Shown piece after piece: positions 6,485-13,406 of a stretch of 64,000 nt of DNA. The stretch's first letter is position 1; each line of letters starts with the position of its first letter. The notes beneath the pieces are model-generated. The model ran no database searches and had not been told where the DNA came from. It worked only from the letters and a program-made list of their open reading frames with translations. Origin of the DNA: Natronobacterium gregoryi SP2 (GTDB lineage Archaea; Halobacteriota; Halobacteria; Halobacteriales; Natrialbaceae); assembly GCF_000230715.2 (NCBI RefSeq), contig NC_019792.1, positions 1,364,001 to 1,428,000 of the forward strand. Direction: 5' to 3'. The position numbers were made by a program, and so were the translations under genes.

Positions 6485-7660
6485 CGAGAGAGCTTAATGA
6501 GTGACAGAAGTTTTGGGCGTGGGCTAAGACGAACGGGGTAATGGGAGGAGACCGGCGGGGCGAGCTCGTTCGTCATCTGAGCGAGGAGGAGTTGGATCGT
6601 CTGCTGGACGAAGCAGACGATCCAAAGGTCGTCAAGCGGCTCACCTTTGTCAAACGTCTCTACAAGGGTGCAACGTACGAAGAAGCAGCCGACGACGTTG
6701 GGAAATCTGCGTCGACTGGAAGTCGCTGGGCACGTCGATGGAACGATGGCGGGCTGGGTCAGTTGACACCGAACTTCGGGGGCGGAAGGCCCCCGAAGCT
6801 CGGTGACGAGGAACAAGAGTGTCTTCTAGAACTTCTCCGGGAGGGACAGCCCTGGAAAGCACAGGAAGTTCACCAGCTCTTGGACGAAGAGTTCGATGTT
6901 GAGTACCATCCGGATTATCTCGGTCGATTCCTCCGGAATCTCGGACTGTCTTACGCTAAACCACGTCCAAAACGTCCCTCACGGCCAGAAAATGCAGATG
7001 AAATCCTCGAAGAACGCGTCGCAGACGCGTTCGACGAGGAAACAGAGACAGCACATAACAAGCGTCCCGAGGATGAGGACGAAGGCTGGGTTCTCGACGA
7101 CGATATCTGTACAGATGGAGGAACTATCGTCGGTTTTTGTGACGCTTCTCATCCGCAACCATACGACAATTCGCATCGACTGTGGTACGTCGATGATCCG
7201 ACACTCGAACGACCGCTGGTGAAGCTTGACGAACCAGCGGTCGGGTGCTATACGCTCAACGGCGAAAGTGTCCTGACCTTTCCTGAAGATCAATCGAAAG
7301 AGAACATCTGTGCCCTATTGGAGGAGGTCCGCGAGCAGAATCCGGGAACGCGGATTCTGCTCGTCTTGGACAACTTCTCGTCTCACATCTGTGAGCACAC
7401 GCGCAAGCGCGCACATCAACTCGGTATCGATCTCGTCTTTCTTCCGGTCGGTTCACCGCATCTCAATCCAATCGAGCAGGTCTGGAAAGTGCTCAAACGA
7501 AATGCTTCACCAATCGTCGTGGCGAGCGAGAGCGCGTTCCGCACTCTCGCTCGCCGCCTCTTCAACACCCTCACCGATCGACTTGGATTCGCCAAGTCTT
7601 GGATCGACCAGTTCCTCAGTCCATATTTGCAAAAGTTATCTTGATCATTACGCTCTCTCG
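6485..7660 (+). mobile_element. IS630-type insertion sequence nested in the TnpB element
   Basis: Terminal inverted repeats of about 31 bp bound this roughly 1.18-kb element. The left end CGAGAGAGCTTAATGAGTG (6485 on) matches the reverse complement of the right end, which begins CGAGAGAGCGTAATGATC. The match continues imperfectly to the CTTTTG/GTTTTG region. It carries one transposase gene. It sits between the last codons of tnpB and the right-end hairpin of that element, so it inserted after the TnpB element. No clear TA duplication was seen at the assigned ends. Confidence 0.75.
6541..7644 (+). CDS. IS630-family transposase
   Basis: The 367-residue protein has an N-terminal helix-turn-helix region (YEEAADDVGKSASTGSRWARRW near 46-67) and a second HTH. 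The DDE catalytic domain places Asp201 in VGFCDAS, Asp277 in LLVLDNFSSH and Glu312 in LNPIEQVWKVLK. The HLNPIEQVW signature is diagnostic for IS630. It is complete and lies between matched terminal repeats, so it could still be active. Its last codons overlap, on the opposite strand, the artificial tail of the tnpB frame. Confidence 0.9.
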   Translation: MGGDRRGELVRHLSEEELDRLLDEADDPKVVKRLTFVKRLYKGATYEEAADDVGKSASTGSRWARRWNDGGLGQLTPNFGGGRPPKLGDEEQECLLELLREGQPWKAQEVHQLLDEEFDVEYHPDYLGRFLRNLGLSYAKPRPKRPSRPENADEILEERVADAFDEETETAHNKRPEDEDEGWVLDDDICTDGGTIVGFCDASHPQPYDNSHRLWYVDDPTLERPLVKLDEPAVGCYTLNGESVLTFPEDQSKENICALLEEVREQNPGTRILLVLDNFSSHICEHTRKRAHQLGIDLVFLPVGSPHLNPIEQVWKVLKRNASPIVVASESAFRTLARRLFNTLTDRLGFAKSWIDQFLSPYLQKLS

Positions 7661-8902
7661 AACGACCCCGAGGCTTCCCGTTTCCACGACGCGACTTGCC
7701 GACACGGACTCGAAGTGAGTCGTGTCCGTAGCGGTCACAGTCTCCACGGGCGTGTCTTCGGGCCATCCCAGCCCTAGTTTAGAAAAGCCTCTCTGCAACA
7801 CGTTCATCGCCGCATTCGCATCTCTATCTGTCTCGAACCCACACGCTGGACACGAGTGTTCCCGCACCCAGATAGGTTTCGCTGTTTCCACGCCACACGA
7901 CGCACACTCTTTCGTGGTGCCTCGGGCTTTGACCTGCACGACGTGACAACCGTACAGGTCGGATTTGTATTCGAGAAGGGTGATGAACTGTCTCCACGCC
8001 GCATCCTGCTTGTTCCGTGCGTTGTGCGACTGCTCCAACATCCCCTTCGCGTCCAAGTCCTCAACGAACACGGCGTCGTACTTGCGGACGAGCCATGTCG
8101 TGAGTTTGTGCTGGTAGTCCAGCACCTTCCACTTGATGTGACGTTTGACCTTCGCCACTTCCCGGCGTTGCTTCTCGTAGTTGTTCGACCCCTTCTCCTT
8201 CCGCGAGAGTTTGCGTTGTTCGCGGCGAAGACGCTCGTACTCGTCTTCGAGGTCGAGCCAATCCACGGTTTTGCCGTCTGACGTGTGGATGTAGTTCTGG
8301 ATGCCGAGGTCGATTCCAACGCTGTTGCTCGCGTCGAGCGAGTCCACGTCGGGTTTCTCGGGCAAGTCAGCCTCGTCTGTTTCGAGGCCGAAAGAGACGA
8401 ACCATTCGCCGGTCGTCTCTTTCTTGAACGTGACTTCTTTAATAGTGGCGTGGTCAGGAATCGGGCGGTGGTAACGGATTTTGACCCAACCGATCTTGCT
8501 GAAGCGGACGTAGGCGAACCTGTCGCGTCCCCTCTTTTCATCGAGGTCGAAACCGGACTGGTTGTACGTCACGCTTCGGTACTCGCTGGGGCCTTGCCGT
8601 TTGAGACGACCGACGTTGTATCCCTTCTCTTTCTTCTTACGAAGGTTCGAGAGGTTACGGTGGAAGCGAGCAACAGTGGCTTGTGCGGCTTTTGAGTGCA
8701 GTTCGCTGAACACCGCCCACTTGTGTTTCCACTCTGGAAGTTTGTTGTTCTGGTCGTACTCGCTCGGCTTGTCGTCCTCGGGGCTGTTCTCGTAGTCCCA
8801 GCGGACGTGGTTGTAGAGTTGGCGATGAACGTTCAGATGGTGTTCCAGTCCCTCCGCTACCTCTTGTGTTGGGTAGGCGTGGTAGCGGTGACTGTGTTCC
8901 AT
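7616..8902 (-). CDS. tnpB: TnpB, RNA-guided nuclease of IS200/IS605-type element (3' end altered)
   Basis: The 428-residue frame has all TnpB hallmarks: RuvC Asp198 in GIDLG, Glu281 in VFVEDLD, Asp361 in DRDANAAMN, and a zinc ribbon with Cys333, Cys336, Cys351 and Cys354. TnpB proteins use a transcript of the element right end (omega RNA) to cut the empty donor site, promoting retention. Residues up to about 413 (ETGSLGVV) are native; the last 15 (RESVMIKITFANMD) are read from the nested IS630 repeat. The catalytic core is intact. The guide RNA, which normally spans the tnpB 3' end and the right end, is interrupted by the IS630, so guided cutting is probably impaired. Confidence 0.9.
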   Translation of the reverse strand: MEHSHRYHAYPTQEVAEGLEHHLNVHRQLYNHVRWDYENSPEDDKPSEYDQNNKLPEWKHKWAVFSELHSKAAQATVARFHRNLSNLRKKKEKGYNVGRLKRQGPSEYRSVTYNQSGFDLDEKRGRDRFAYVRFSKIGWVKIRYHRPIPDHATIKEVTFKKETTGEWFVSFGLETDEADLPEKPDVDSLDASNSVGIDLGIQNYIHTSDGKTVDWLDLEDEYERLRREQRKLSRKEKGSNNYEKQRREVAKVKRHIKWKVLDYQHKLTTWLVRKYDAVFVEDLDAKGMLEQSHNARNKQDAAWRQFITLLEYKSDLYGCHVVQVKARGTTKECASCGVETAKPIWVREHSCPACGFETDRDANAAMNVLQRGFSKLGLGWPEDTPVETVTATDTTHFESVSASRVVETGSLGVVRESVMIKITFANMD

Positions 8903-9472: not shown

Positions 9473-9545
9473 GAAACACAACGTCGAACAGAGAGGGTCA
9501 ACAGGGACTGGAGCGTGTGACACTGCTTCGTTTTCCGTGTTGACC

Positions 9546-9633
9546 CTAGTGGCGGGCCAAGCCTGAACTGATGGGTCGAATCTGGCGGTGTGGCTCGATT
9601 CGACCCGTCAGTCGACGGTTGGGACGGTACTAG
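9546..9633 (+). repeat. Family B palindromic element, copy B1
   Basis: 88-bp unit from CTAG to CTAG. The left end CTAGTGGCGGGCCAAGCCTG and the right end CGACGGTTGGGACGGTACTAG-type sequence are shared by other copies. The inner arms GGGTCGAATC and GATTCGACCC form a perfect 10-bp stem. It shares its right CTAG with the inverted copy B2. Confidence 0.75.
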
Positions 9634-9717
9634 TACTCCGCCAAGCGTCGACTGCTGCGTGAACCCAGACGACCGCATTCGGTTTCACTCATCCGTTCAG
9701 GCTTGCCAAAGCACTAG
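9630..9717 (-). repeat. Family B palindromic element, copy B2 (inverted)
   Basis: 88-bp copy in reverse orientation abutting B1. The outer ends match B1, but the inner arms are GTGAACCC / GGTTTCAC rather than GGGTCGAATC / GATTCGACCC, so pairing is kept while sequence differs. It is nearly identical to copy B5 at 17525-17612. Confidence 0.75.
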
Positions 9718-9856
9718 AGAGAAAGCCCTCTGTGGCGGATTATATTTTGTGGCCCGCCGGATCGGTCTCGAGCGGCTGAATTTGGCCGAGTGAGGCGAGA
9801 CTGACGAGCGTCACCGATCCACAATGTTTTTGCGATCGCCTCCCGATCGGACGTGT

Positions 9857-9940
9857 ATGGCCTCCGAATCCCGCGGCCGTGAAAGCGTCGTCAGCCAGCA
9901 ACAGCAGACGCGTTCGGGGTTCGGCTTCTTTTTTCGGTAG
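9857..9940 (+). CDS. Phe-rich leader peptide upstream of pheST (candidate)
   Basis: A 27-codon mini-ORF begins at ATG 9857 and ends RSGFGFFFR before TAG at 9938. Four of the last six residues before the final Arg are Phe, two written with TTT, which is uncommon in this genome. A possible TATA element (CAATGTTTTTGCG, about 9823-9835) is placed for a leaderless start. Strong inverted repeats separate it from pheS 137 bases downstream. The Phe codons form a T-rich run (TTCTTTTTT), which is also the kind of sequence archaeal RNA polymerase terminates on. It resembles the E. coli pheST leader in logic. Translation is not demonstrated. Confidence 0.55.
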   Translation: MASESRGRESVVSQQQQTRSGFGFFFR

Positions 9941-9946
9941 CTCGGA

Positions 9947-10018
9947 ACGGTGAACCCACGGTCTCCGTCGTCGGCGGCCGTGGCGAAACCGTCCGTCCCG
10001 CGCCGACGGGAGTCGGCG
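9947..10018 (+). promoter_or_regulatory. Hairpins in the pheST leader
   Basis: Between the Phe-rich mini-ORF and pheS there are two stems. The first is nested: ACGGT with ACCGT (9947-9951 / 9988-9992) outside CCACGG with CCGTGG (9956-9961 / 9978-9983). The second is a perfect 7-bp CGCCGAC / GTCGGCG with loop GGGA at 10001-10018. They would suit an attenuator or translational switch. Alternative pairings were not computed. Confidence 0.45.
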
Positions 10019-10077
10019 TCGGCCCGATGCGAGTCGGAACCGCTAACTGACCGCCACGCAGCCATACCAACAAGCGA

Positions 10078-11592
10078 ATGCAACTTCCAGAACCACAGGT
10101 CGCGGTCCTAGAGGCCGCGAGTGCGGACGAGGCAACGTCCGTCGACGCCCTCGCCGAGGCGACCGACCTTCCACCCGAGACCGTCACCGGGGCGGCGTTC
10201 GAACTCGAGGAGGAGGGTCTGCTCGAGGTCAGAGAGCGCGTCGACGAAACGATCGAACTCACCGCCGAGGGCCACGACTACGCCGACGGCCGGTTGCCGG
10301 AGGTGCGACTCTACGAGACTGCGCTCGAGGCCGGTGCCGACGCTGACGCAGTCTCGATGGGCCAGGTCATCGGTGGGTCGGGTCTCGAGGGCGACGCGGT
10401 CGACATCGCGCTCTCGAACTACGCCCGGAAGGGGTACGGCTCGATCGACAGCGGCGAGATCACCGCCGATCCGGACGCCGACCCCACAGCAGACGCGGAA
10501 GCCAGTACGCTCGAGACGCTGGCCGACGACGCAGATGCCGACGGGGTCGACGACGACACGCTCGAGAGCCTCGAGCGGCGCGGACTCGTCGACATCGTCG
10601 AGACGACGACCCGCGAGGTGATGGTGACCGAGCAGGGCGTCACGGAACTGATGGCCGGCCTCGAGACTGCCGAGACGGTCGGACAGGTGACGCCGGAACT
10701 GCTGACGGGCGGCGACTGGCAGGACGTCGAGTTCGCCGACTACAACGTCGAGGCCGACGCCGAGCGGTTCGAGGGTGGAAACGTCCACATCCTGCGCCAG
10801 ACGGCAGAGCGCGTGAAAGACGTTCTCGTCGGCATGGGCTTCCAGGAGATGGAAGGCCCGCACGTCGACGCGGACTTCTGGATCAACGACTGCCTGTTCA
10901 TGCCCCAGGACCACCCCGCACGGACTCACTGGGACCGGTTCGCGCTCGAGGAGCCGACGCACATCGACGAACTCCCCGAACAACTCGTCGCGGACGTCGA
11001 ACGCGCCCACCGCGAGGGCGTCGGCGCGGACGGCGAGGGGTATCACTCGCCGTGGGACGAGGACTTCGCGCGTGCACTCGCACTGCGCGGCCACACGACC
11101 TCGCTGTCGACGCGGTATCTCTCCGGCGAGGAGATCGGCGAGATCGAACCGCCAGCCCGGTACTTCAGCGTCGAGAAGGTGTACCGCAACGATACGCTCG
11201 ACCCGACCCACCTGCTCGAGTTCTTCCAGATCGAGGGCTGGGTGATGGCCGAAGACCTCTCCGTGCGTGACCTGATGGGCACCTTCGAAGAGTTCTACGC
11301 CCAGTTCGGCATCGAGGACATCCAGTTCAAGCCCCACTACAACCCCTACACGGAGCCGAGCTTCGAACTGTTCGGGACGCATCCGACGACCGGCGAACTC
11401 GTCGAGATCGGCAACTCCGGCATCTTCCGCGAGGAGATGCTCGAGCCCCTCGGTGTGGAGTGTGACGTGATGGCCTGGGGGCTCGCCCTCGAGCGTCTGC
11501 TGATGCTGATGTACGGCTTCGAGGACATCCGGGACATCCACGGGACGCTGTGTGATCTTGAACTGCTGCGGAACACGGAGGTGACCTACTGA
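10078..11592 (+). CDS. pheS: Phenylalanine-tRNA ligase alpha subunit
   Basis: 504 residues. The N-terminal part has winged-helix repeats typical of archaeal/eukaryotic PheRS alpha (EATDLPPETVTGAAFELEEEGLLEV). The class II core follows, with motif 2 around YRNDTLDPTHLLEFFQIEGW and motif 3 around GLALERLLMLMYG. The subunit carries the catalytic site for charging tRNA-Phe as an alpha2-beta2 enzyme. The stop overlaps the pheT ATG (TGATG), so the two are translationally coupled. The Phe-rich mini-ORF and hairpins upstream suggest control by Phe-tRNA charging. Confidence 0.96.
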   Translation: MQLPEPQVAVLEAASADEATSVDALAEATDLPPETVTGAAFELEEEGLLEVRERVDETIELTAEGHDYADGRLPEVRLYETALEAGADADAVSMGQVIGGSGLEGDAVDIALSNYARKGYGSIDSGEITADPDADPTADAEASTLETLADDADADGVDDDTLESLERRGLVDIVETTTREVMVTEQGVTELMAGLETAETVGQVTPELLTGGDWQDVEFADYNVEADAERFEGGNVHILRQTAERVKDVLVGMGFQEMEGPHVDADFWINDCLFMPQDHPARTHWDRFALEEPTHIDELPEQLVADVERAHREGVGADGEGYHSPWDEDFARALALRGHTTSLSTRYLSGEEIGEIEPPARYFSVEKVYRNDTLDPTHLLEFFQIEGWVMAEDLSVRDLMGTFEEFYAQFGIEDIQFKPHYNPYTEPSFELFGTHPTTGELVEIGNSGIFREEMLEPLGVECDVMAWGLALERLLMLMYGFEDIRDIHGTLCDLELLRNTEVTY

Positions 11593-13406
11593 TGCCCACG
11601 GTCGACATCGATCCCGACGAACTGCGCGAACTGACCGGCAAGGACGAGACAGGCGACGAAGAACTGAAAGAGGACCTGTTCGCCCTCGGCCTCGAGTTCG
11701 AGGGCCGCACCGAAGACGGCGAGTTCGAACTCGAGTTCGCGCCCGATCGCCTGGATCGGCTCTCGGTGGAAGGCATCGCACGATCGCTCACCTACCAGCA
11801 CGGCGACTCTCGAGGTGTACACGTCCCGTCGACGAACAAGCCCGAGTGGACGATCGAGGTCGACGAATCGGTGCCCGAGGAGCGACCGTACGTCACGGGC
11901 GCGGTGATCCGCGACGTCGACCTGGACGAAGACGCGCTCGACTCCCTCATTCAGCTACAGGAGAAACTCCACGCGACGATGGGGCGCAAGCGCGCGAAGG
12001 GCGCGATCGGGATTCACGATCTGACGATGTTGAAGGGGCGCGATGCGCTACGCGCATCGGAAAGCGCGAGTAGCGCGGAACGTAGTTCCGCGAATAGTCG
12101 AGCGGCGGAGCCGCGAGACGACGGCGACGAGCCGCGAGCGAGTCCCGAGACGGAGGGCAGTTCCACCATCGAGTACGTCGGCGTCGAACCCGACGAGGAT
12201 CGGTTCGTCCCGCTCGATTCCGACGCAGAGCTGACGCCCGCGGACGTACTCGAGGACCACCCCACCGGCGAGACCTACGCCGACCTCGTGAGCGAGTACG
12301 AGCGCTACCCCGCGATCTACGACGATCTCGGGCTGTTCTCGTTCCCGCCAGTCATCAACGGTCGGCGCACGGAGGTCACCACCGACTCACGGGACCTCTT
12401 CGTCGAGATGACCGGCACCGACCAGTGGACGATCGACAGGATGCTCAACATCGTCTGCTACGCGCTCGCTGCGCGCGGAGCGACCCTCGAGGAAGTTACC
12501 GTCGAGTATCCGGACCACGAAATCGTTCGTCCGGACCTCTCGACGACGGAAAAGACGGTCGCACACGACCGAATCGAGACGATTCTGGGCGTCGACTTCG
12601 ACCCCGAGGAAGTGATCGACCTCGCAGAACGATCCGGCCTCGAGGCCGAAAAAGAAGCAAGCGACGACGGCGACCTCGTCTACGAGGTCACGATCCCACC
12701 CTACCGTGTCGACGTGCTCCACCCGCTAGATGTCATCGACGACCTCGGGCGCGCGTACGGCTTCAACGAACTCGAGCCGAACTATCCCGAGGTCGGGACC
12801 GTCGGCGGCCGCCACGAGCGCTCGCGCCTCGAACGCTCGGTCCGCGAGCAACTCGTTGGCCTGGGCTTCGAGGATCTGCTGAACTTCCACATGATCAGCG
12901 AGGAGGAGAACTACGAGCGCGTGGACGTGGAACCCGACGCTGGCGTCTACGGGGCCGGCGAGCCCGCGACCATCAAAGGGCCCTACAGCGAGGACTTCAC
13001 GATGTTGCGGACGTGGGTCACACCCTCGCTGCTGATGGTCTTAGAGCGTAACACCCACCGCGCGTATCCACAGGACCTCGCGGAGATCGGATTCACCGCT
13101 GAGGTCGACGAGAGCGAAAATACGGGCATCGCCGAACGACGCCGCATCGGGGCCGTCCTCGCGAGCCACGAAGCCGGCTACGAGGACGCAAAGGCTCGAC
13201 TGCAGGCACTCTGTCGCCGGTTCGACGTCGACCTCGAGACGCCGCCCACCGAACACCCGACCTTCATTTCGGGTCGAACGGCGAGCGTCGTCATCGACGG
13301 CGAGGCGGTCGGCGTGATCGGCGAGTTCCATCCGACGGTGCTCGTCGAACACGACCTCGAGGTGCCCGTGGCCGGGTTCGAGTTCGACCTCGCGGCGCTG
13401 CGGTAA
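11592..13406 (+). CDS. pheT: Phenylalanine-tRNA ligase beta subunit
   Basis: 604 residues with archaeal PheRS beta architecture. A B3/B4 editing-type region lies in the first half, B5 DNA-binding-like folds near LSTTEKTVAHDRIETILGVDFDPEEV, and an inactive class II-like core near the end (FHPTVLVEHDLEVPVAGFEFDL). It overlaps pheS by one base. Residues about 148-185 are a Ser/Ala/Arg-rich low-complexity insert encoded by three perfect hairpins; flanking sequence reads normally, so the frame is preserved. It pairs with PheS in the cytoplasm. Confidence 0.96.
   Translation: MPTVDIDPDELRELTGKDETGDEELKEDLFALGLEFEGRTEDGEFELEFAPDRLDRLSVEGIARSLTYQHGDSRGVHVPSTNKPEWTIEVDESVPEERPYVTGAVIRDVDLDEDALDSLIQLQEKLHATMGRKRAKGAIGIHDLTMLKGRDALRASESASSAERSSANSRAAEPRDDGDEPRASPETEGSSTIEYVGVEPDEDRFVPLDSDAELTPADVLEDHPTGETYADLVSEYERYPAIYDDLGLFSFPPVINGRRTEVTTDSRDLFVEMTGTDQWTIDRMLNIVCYALAARGATLEEVTVEYPDHEIVRPDLSTTEKTVAHDRIETILGVDFDPEEVIDLAERSGLEAEKEASDDGDLVYEVTIPPYRVDVLHPLDVIDDLGRAYGFNELEPNYPEVGTVGGRHERSRLERSVREQLVGLGFEDLLNFHMISEEENYERVDVEPDAGVYGAGEPATIKGPYSEDFTMLRTWVTPSLLMVLERNTHRAYPQDLAEIGFTAEVDESENTGIAERRRIGAVLASHEAGYEDAKARLQALCRRFDVDLETPPTEHPTFISGRTASVVIDGEAVGVIGEFHPTVLVEHDLEVPVAGFEFDLAALR
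12041..12114. repeat. Three triloop hairpins inserted in frame within pheT
   Basis: Consecutive perfect stems lie inside the coding sequence: CGATGCGC TAC GCGCATCG (12041-12059), CGCGGAAC GTA GTTCCGCG (12074-12092) and GCGGC GGA GCCGC (12102-12114). All have 3-base loops. They encode a Ser/Ala/Arg/Glu-rich stretch that looks unstructured. This is an intragenic repeat insertion tolerated by the protein. Confidence 0.75.

Follow-up and report, generated by a model that had tools for sequence, protein, structure and literature searches.

A conserved phenylalanine-codon leader with covarying RNA stems upstream of pheST in Halobacteria, and its putative attenuator-like role

What is a short open reading frame ending in a run of phenylalanine codons doing directly upstream of the genes for phenylalanine--tRNA ligase in a haloarchaeon? 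Leader-peptide control that senses charged tRNA is textbook knowledge in bacteria. A search of the open-access literature found no charged-tRNA-sensing leader peptide described in archaea, and older haloarchaeal literature may hold more. The window analysed here is a 64,000-nt stretch of the Natronobacterium gregoryi SP2 genome (NC_019792.1, positions 1,364,001 to 1,428,000). A sequence-only reading of it had pointed to a Phe-rich mini-ORF and leader hairpins before pheST, and had proposed that a ribosome on the Phe codons decides termination at a T-run within those same codons. As described below, comparative sequence evidence supports a Phe-rich, probably translated and regulatory leader with leader stems before pheST, while the role assigned to the T-run is not borne out.

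The Phe-rich leader ORF before pheST

The features of the locus outside the RNA helices are the following.

9820–9832, forward strand: leader promoter CACAATGTTTTTG, with a TATA-like T tract at 9827–9831 centred 28 nt upstream of the leader ATG
9857–9940, forward strand: leader peptide ORF, encoding MASESRGRESVVSQQQQTRSGFGFFFR and then a stop codon
9926–9934, forward strand: proposed sensing Phe codons TTC TTT TTT, a U-rich tract
10033–10050, forward strand: element GTCGGAACCGCTAACTGA, a candidate second promoter about 27–45 nt upstream of pheS
10078–11592, forward strand: pheS, phenylalanine--tRNA ligase alpha (NF003210, TIGR00468), the proposed controlled gene
11592–13406, forward strand: pheT, phenylalanine--tRNA ligase beta (TIGR00471), its start overlapping the pheS stop

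The leader ORF comprises 27 codons and a TAG stop and lies 221 nt upstream of pheS. The Phe-rich end anticipated by the sequence-only reading is present, as is the T-run TTCTTTTTT, which is formed by Phe codons 24–26. NCBIfam and Pfam identify pheS and pheT, and neither collection has a match for the leader peptides. The ATG at 9824, the start given in a program-made ORF list, was rejected in favour of 9857 because of conservation and promoter spacing. In a survey of 1.26 Mb of the genome, covering 1129 gene-like ORFs, no other upstream mini-ORF equalled this leader in joining a TATA-like tract to a same-residue run and a start-proximal helix.

The position of the promoter is itself conserved. 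Among 172 relatives, the TATA-like tract is centred at −28 from the leader ATG in 126 and 26–29 nt upstream in 164. Leaderless haloarchaeal transcripts are characterized by a TATA-like element some 27 nt ahead of the start codon, and the spacing found here suggests that the leader transcript is leaderless, starting at or near the leader ATG. Transcript data on the same gene from Haloferax volcanii agree with this: pheS (HVO_2948) has a mapped transcription start, a 5′ UTR in the 150–250 nt class and a 26-aa uORF of pI 5.9 (PMC4983044, Table 2 row 13), in agreement with the 26 aa and pI 5.94 of the Haloferacaceae orthologue in our set (L206). The same table lists a 23-aa uORF and the same 5′ UTR class for tryptophan--tRNA ligase (row 12). 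The uORF section of that study (Babski et al. 2016) is confined to lengths, pI, mass and extra starts; it proposes no function for the uORFs and reports an extra start for neither gene (PMC4983044). A search of the open-access literature for HVO_2948 found nothing. The GTCGGAACCGCTAACTGA element is a candidate promoter of a leaderless pheS mRNA, though the same uORF section reports no extra start at Hfx. volcanii pheS. It is kept in several genomes that have no leader as well.

The nearest pheS relatives of the window belong to Natrialbaceae, and 174 leaders were collected from loci upstream of pheS in relatives. The mini-ORF is conserved beside pheS; had it not been, the sequence-only reading would by its own standard have been refuted. 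Of 145 Halobacteriales genomes, 123, representing 43 of 49 genera, contain a match to a covariance model built on the leader, usually once and at pheS, and the model has zero matches outside Halobacteriales among 197 genomes sampled across the phylum. Loci from Natronomonas, Halohasta, Halonotius and Halarchaeum have no leader upstream of pheS. Another 20 regions matched away from pheS were set aside, nearly all of them as chance matches, mostly within coding sequence.

In most loci read, the peptide follows the pattern M-[AP]-x-E-[SP]- ... -GFGFFFA[R] before the stop, with conserved ends and a middle that varies in sequence and length, such that 17 to 40 codons separate the ATG from the Phe codons. 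In a test that ignored the ORF, 125 of 126 loci nevertheless have the Phe motif in the same frame as the start motif, the sole exception (L050) coming from a metagenome assembly; this conservation of frame argues for translation of the leader. The 137 leaders counted carry 3–5 Phe in the final 14 codons, a number that is kept even where the run is interrupted (GFGFVF, GFGFEFGF, GFGFAFF). These comparisons indicate that the Phe-rich ORF before pheS is not there by chance.

Several copies look decayed. One leader has no recognisable start (L066), another keeps ATGGCATCCGAATCCC and reads past the usual stop (L231), and in a third only the GACGAAACCG part is left (L230). A degenerate-looking second leader copy, GEPGTVGGFGRFLDA together with CGGTGGA, stands before an unrelated gene away from pheS (L262, G110:C1:2162549-2162668).

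Conserved stems and the U-rich Phe tract

Two RNA helices flank the proposed sensing codons.

9862–9872, forward strand: 5′ arm of helix 1 (arm A), CCGAATCCC at 9864–9872 together with 9862, pairing with arm B
9916–9926, forward strand: 3′ arm of helix 1 (arm B), GGGGTTCGG at 9916–9924 together with 9926, in the first GFG codons
9943–9999, forward strand: hairpin 2, past the stop codon, its outer stem pairing CGGT at 9948–9951 (arm C) with ACCG at 9988–9991 (arm D)

Helix 1 joins codons 3–6 (CCGAAUCC) with the first GFG codons (GGAUUCGG) and shows many compensatory changes; across 58 sequences, 97.2% of its cells are paired and 7 of its 10 pairs have two-sided changes. At ORF position 12 and its partner b2, for example, the 137 leaders have T-A in 67 cases, C-G in 49 and T-G in 18, and C-A in 0. 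In three leaders (L221, L233, L234), the pairing of Glu GAA and Phe TTC gives way to one of Asp GAC and Val GTC, and a fourth (L217) carries a double change in which CTCGAACGC pairs with GCGTTCGAG. The alignments indicate that residues of the peptide change so that pairing is kept, lineage by lineage. Since residues swap to preserve helix 1, the first Phe of GFGFFF appears to be held by pairing and the later ones not; 2–3 more Phe codons follow the helix, and then the stop.

Hairpin 2 usually starts 3–8 nt past the leader stop. Its family form consists of an outer stem xxCGGU/ACCGxx, an almost invariant internal loop of the GGA/GAA type and a GC-rich inner stem, the stems covarying, with two-sided changes in 135 cells compared with 44 in shuffles. 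The N. gregoryi copy folds accordingly, with an inner GC stem at about 9956–9983 and GAA in the internal loop. RNAalifold, run unguided on 58 relatives, finds both stems, with two-sided changes at 15 of 18 pairs, which bears out the leader hairpins of the sequence-only reading, and the covariation counts of both stems exceed those of shuffled and slid controls. In the N. gregoryi sequence, the minimum free energy fold of the leader alone prefers a different 5′ pairing over helix 1, and a longer fold brings helix 1 back; neither z-score is extreme (−2.07, −1.11).

We found no conserved terminator and no clearly exclusive third structure in the interval from hairpin 2 to pheS. The only alternative pairing found joins arm B with arm D, with 6 of 7 positions pairable and 84% of cells paired; it has a constant mismatch and, as it shows no covariation, was not adopted as an antiterminator. 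The Phe tract is the U-richest 9-mer from the leader ATG to pheS in 173 of 174 leaders, the remaining one being a tie, and no downstream intrinsic terminator was found in this interval.

The codons of the tract are chosen with a bias towards T. Of 74 sequence clusters, 39 contain a T-run of at least 5, against 20.9 expected from dipeptide context or 6.2 from independent codons; like the counts of leaders, these include related genomes, so that independent events are fewer. Leader Phe codons are more often TTT than those of neighbouring coding sequence. FF is written TTTTTT or TTTTTC in 27 of 30 leader runs, compared with 59 of 281 (21%) in background coding sequence; similarly, VF is GTTTT[TC] in all 12 leaders that have it and in 13 of 275 background cases (5%). 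FFF runs, on the other hand, read TTCTTCTTC in 56 of 91 cases, and T-runs do not exceed 3 in 78 of the 174 leaders. From these sequences, U-richness is favoured and a T-run is not required. Comparison with relatives thus upholds the enrichment of Phe codons and T-richness in the earlier claim, but the T-run itself is not kept. The TTCTTCTTC leaders and those with no run above 3 also led us to reject the T-run as a universal terminator.

Proposed control of pheST and its rivals

We consider it probable that the leader exerts amino-acid-sensing, attenuator-type control of pheST through Phe-tRNA. Cognate codons are clustered in the leader ORF, and the conserved stems are placed where the position of a ribosome would affect them. 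From the A site to arm C, the distance is about 9 nt for a ribosome at the stop codon, 18 nt at the last Phe codon and 21 nt at the preceding one, and both the stop-to-C and the Phe-to-C spacings are narrow among relatives. A ribosome covers roughly 12–13 nt ahead of its A site. Because this footprint exceeds the first distance and falls short of the other two, arm C would be covered at the stop and free at the Phe codons. A ribosome awaiting Phe-tRNA on the last Phe codons would cover arm B, blocking helix 1, while leaving arm C free at about 18–21 nt; one supplied with Phe-tRNA would proceed to the stop codon and cover arm C. The conformation of the RNA would in this way be chosen by ribosome position on the Phe codons, and scarce charged Phe-tRNA would presumably raise pheST expression. 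As the output step, we slightly favour premature termination over translational control of pheS; such termination would most likely take place at the U-rich Phe tract with the help of FttA. We call the leader attenuator-like, and not an attenuator of the bacterial type, because no downstream intrinsic terminator was found and the only candidate for exclusive structures, the B:D pairing, lacks covariation. The absence of the leader from some lineages counts against the proposal, as does the other 5′ pairing preferred when the N. gregoryi leader is folded alone.

Two kinds of termination could act at the tract. The one originally proposed, intrinsic termination of the archaeal polymerase on oligo-T inside the Phe codons as decided by a ribosome there, agrees with the presence of TTCTTTTTT directly downstream of helix 1, with the excess of runs of at least 5 over codon usage and with the T-rich spelling of FF and VF; against it, the many leaders with no run above 3 and the prevalence of TTCTTCTTC show that the run is dispensable. 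Moreover, a ribosome on the Phe codons would trail the polymerase and lie upstream of it when the T-run is read, and for this reason could hardly decide termination there, so that we regard this mechanism as very improbable. A possible, if tentative, explanation is occlusion of FttA (aCPSF1), in which the Phe codons would be both sensor and U-rich loading site, and a stalled ribosome would mask the site and allow the polymerase to reach pheST. The RNA that FttA prefers is U-rich and lies 30–36 nt back from the polymerase 3′ end (PMC11616081); the Phe tract fits this preference, so that a ribosome standing on the Phe codons could hide the site. The standing of the tract as the U-richest 9-mer of nearly every leader, its U-enrichment beyond codon usage and the untranslated stretch of >100 nt up to pheS are in line with this. 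However, many leaders offer only UUCUUCUUC, while aCPSF1 of M. maripaludis, which is not a haloarchaeon, bound U4 and not U3 tracts (PMC8716108). Masking of FttA alone would also leave hairpin 2 unexplained.

The remaining explanations place control elsewhere. Haloarchaeal mRNAs mostly lack Shine-Dalgarno sites, a general background that would suit a translational scheme, in which re-initiation at the pheS start, or access to it, would depend on translation of the uORF and on the two hairpins, with transcription unaffected. Because Hfx. volcanii pheS has a long 5′ UTR and the uORF section reports no extra start there (PMC4983044), the leader probably stays in the pheS mRNA, which again would favour such a scheme. 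Still, no pairing that involves the region around the pheS start was found to be conserved, and hairpin 2 is upstream of pheS by at least about 100 nt, leaving translational control rather doubtful. The almost invariant loop of hairpin 2 and the covariation of the stems are what a protein-bound RNA element would predict, for example PheRS autoregulation through the GGA/GAA loop with the ORF secondary, yet the near-perfect frame and the in-frame Phe codons kept outside the helices would be unneeded for protein binding, and we judge this improbable. It is extremely improbable that the ORF encodes a small protein whose function is unrelated to pheS and which precedes that gene by chance: although it is conserved and has its own promoter, its middle is variable, its conserved ends track RNA pairing, it always stands at pheS in the loci read, and the protein family collections return no match.

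Relation to known leaders and a tryptophan counterpart

The putative attenuator-like leader resembles bacterial attenuators, such as the E. coli pheST leader PheM and those of pheA, trp and his, in its short length, in its cognate-codon cluster before the gene served, in the hairpins around and after the leader and in ribosome position as the proposed sensor. It differs from them in its archaeal host and apparently leaderless start, in a helix 1 that joins start-proximal codons to those immediately ahead of the proposed sensing codons, and in having neither an intrinsic terminator nor a conserved exclusive antiterminator that we could find downstream. In bacteria, stalling of the TnaC ribosome keeps Rho from reaching its site. 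A leader ribosome before pheS could likewise shield the loading site of a termination factor; unlike in the TnaC case, the factor would be archaeal FttA and the candidate loading site the sensing codons themselves. T-box riboswitches also place aminoacyl-tRNA synthetase genes under the control of tRNA charging, but they do so by tRNA binding to the leader, whereas the pheS leader would sense through the ribosome; no Rfam family, T-box model included, reaches its gathering score within the window.

Tryptophan appears to have a similar leader. In the Haloferacaceae-type genomes searched (L282–L291), an ORF with Trp codons, for example MTTAPWRWWSPLSGADSPAVVVAAA or MVSTSHANCWRWHASREVDSIAV, lies 159–261 nt upstream of an accessory trpS, and a helix near the start (CCGCUCCC/GGGAGCGG or CCACUUCCC/GGGAAGUGG), recognised by visual inspection of ten sequences, encloses its Trp codons. 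In one of these sequences (L284) the ORF is short, begins with GTG and holds a single Trp codon. These leaders match the 23-aa uORF listed for HVO_A0127, just as the pheS leader matches the 26-aa uORF of HVO_2948; the Phe and Trp codons, the helices, the order-wide conservation and a function are not described in that uORF section (PMC4983044). The Trp-codon leaders at accessory trpS make it likely that a class of such cognate-codon leaders exists. The boldest reading, namely the first ribosome-mediated attenuator in Archaea, common to Halobacteria, with Phe codons that double as the U-rich site of FttA and a Trp counterpart at trpS, seems unlikely to hold in full.

If the proposed control is true, an element found in 43 of the 49 haloarchaeal genera sampled would mean that archaea use transcription–translation coupling to regulate genes, or that a comparable solution evolved alongside leaderless mRNAs and termination machinery of another kind. 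The pheS leader would be a natural substrate for asking if archaeal ribosomes shield RNA from FttA, and the genetic tractability of genera such as Haloferax and Halobacterium makes early testing feasible.

The sequence preceding the N. gregoryi leader has features of its own. Nested inverted repeats occupy 9494–9717, in the interval that separates the upstream gene from the promoter of the leader. Short stretches of these repeats match three haloarchaeal plasmids at 77–89%, and the repeats are possibly the remnant of a small mobile element. Further upstream, an IS630-family transposase gene (6541–7644, forward strand) overlaps the end of a TnpB-family gene (7616–8902, reverse strand).
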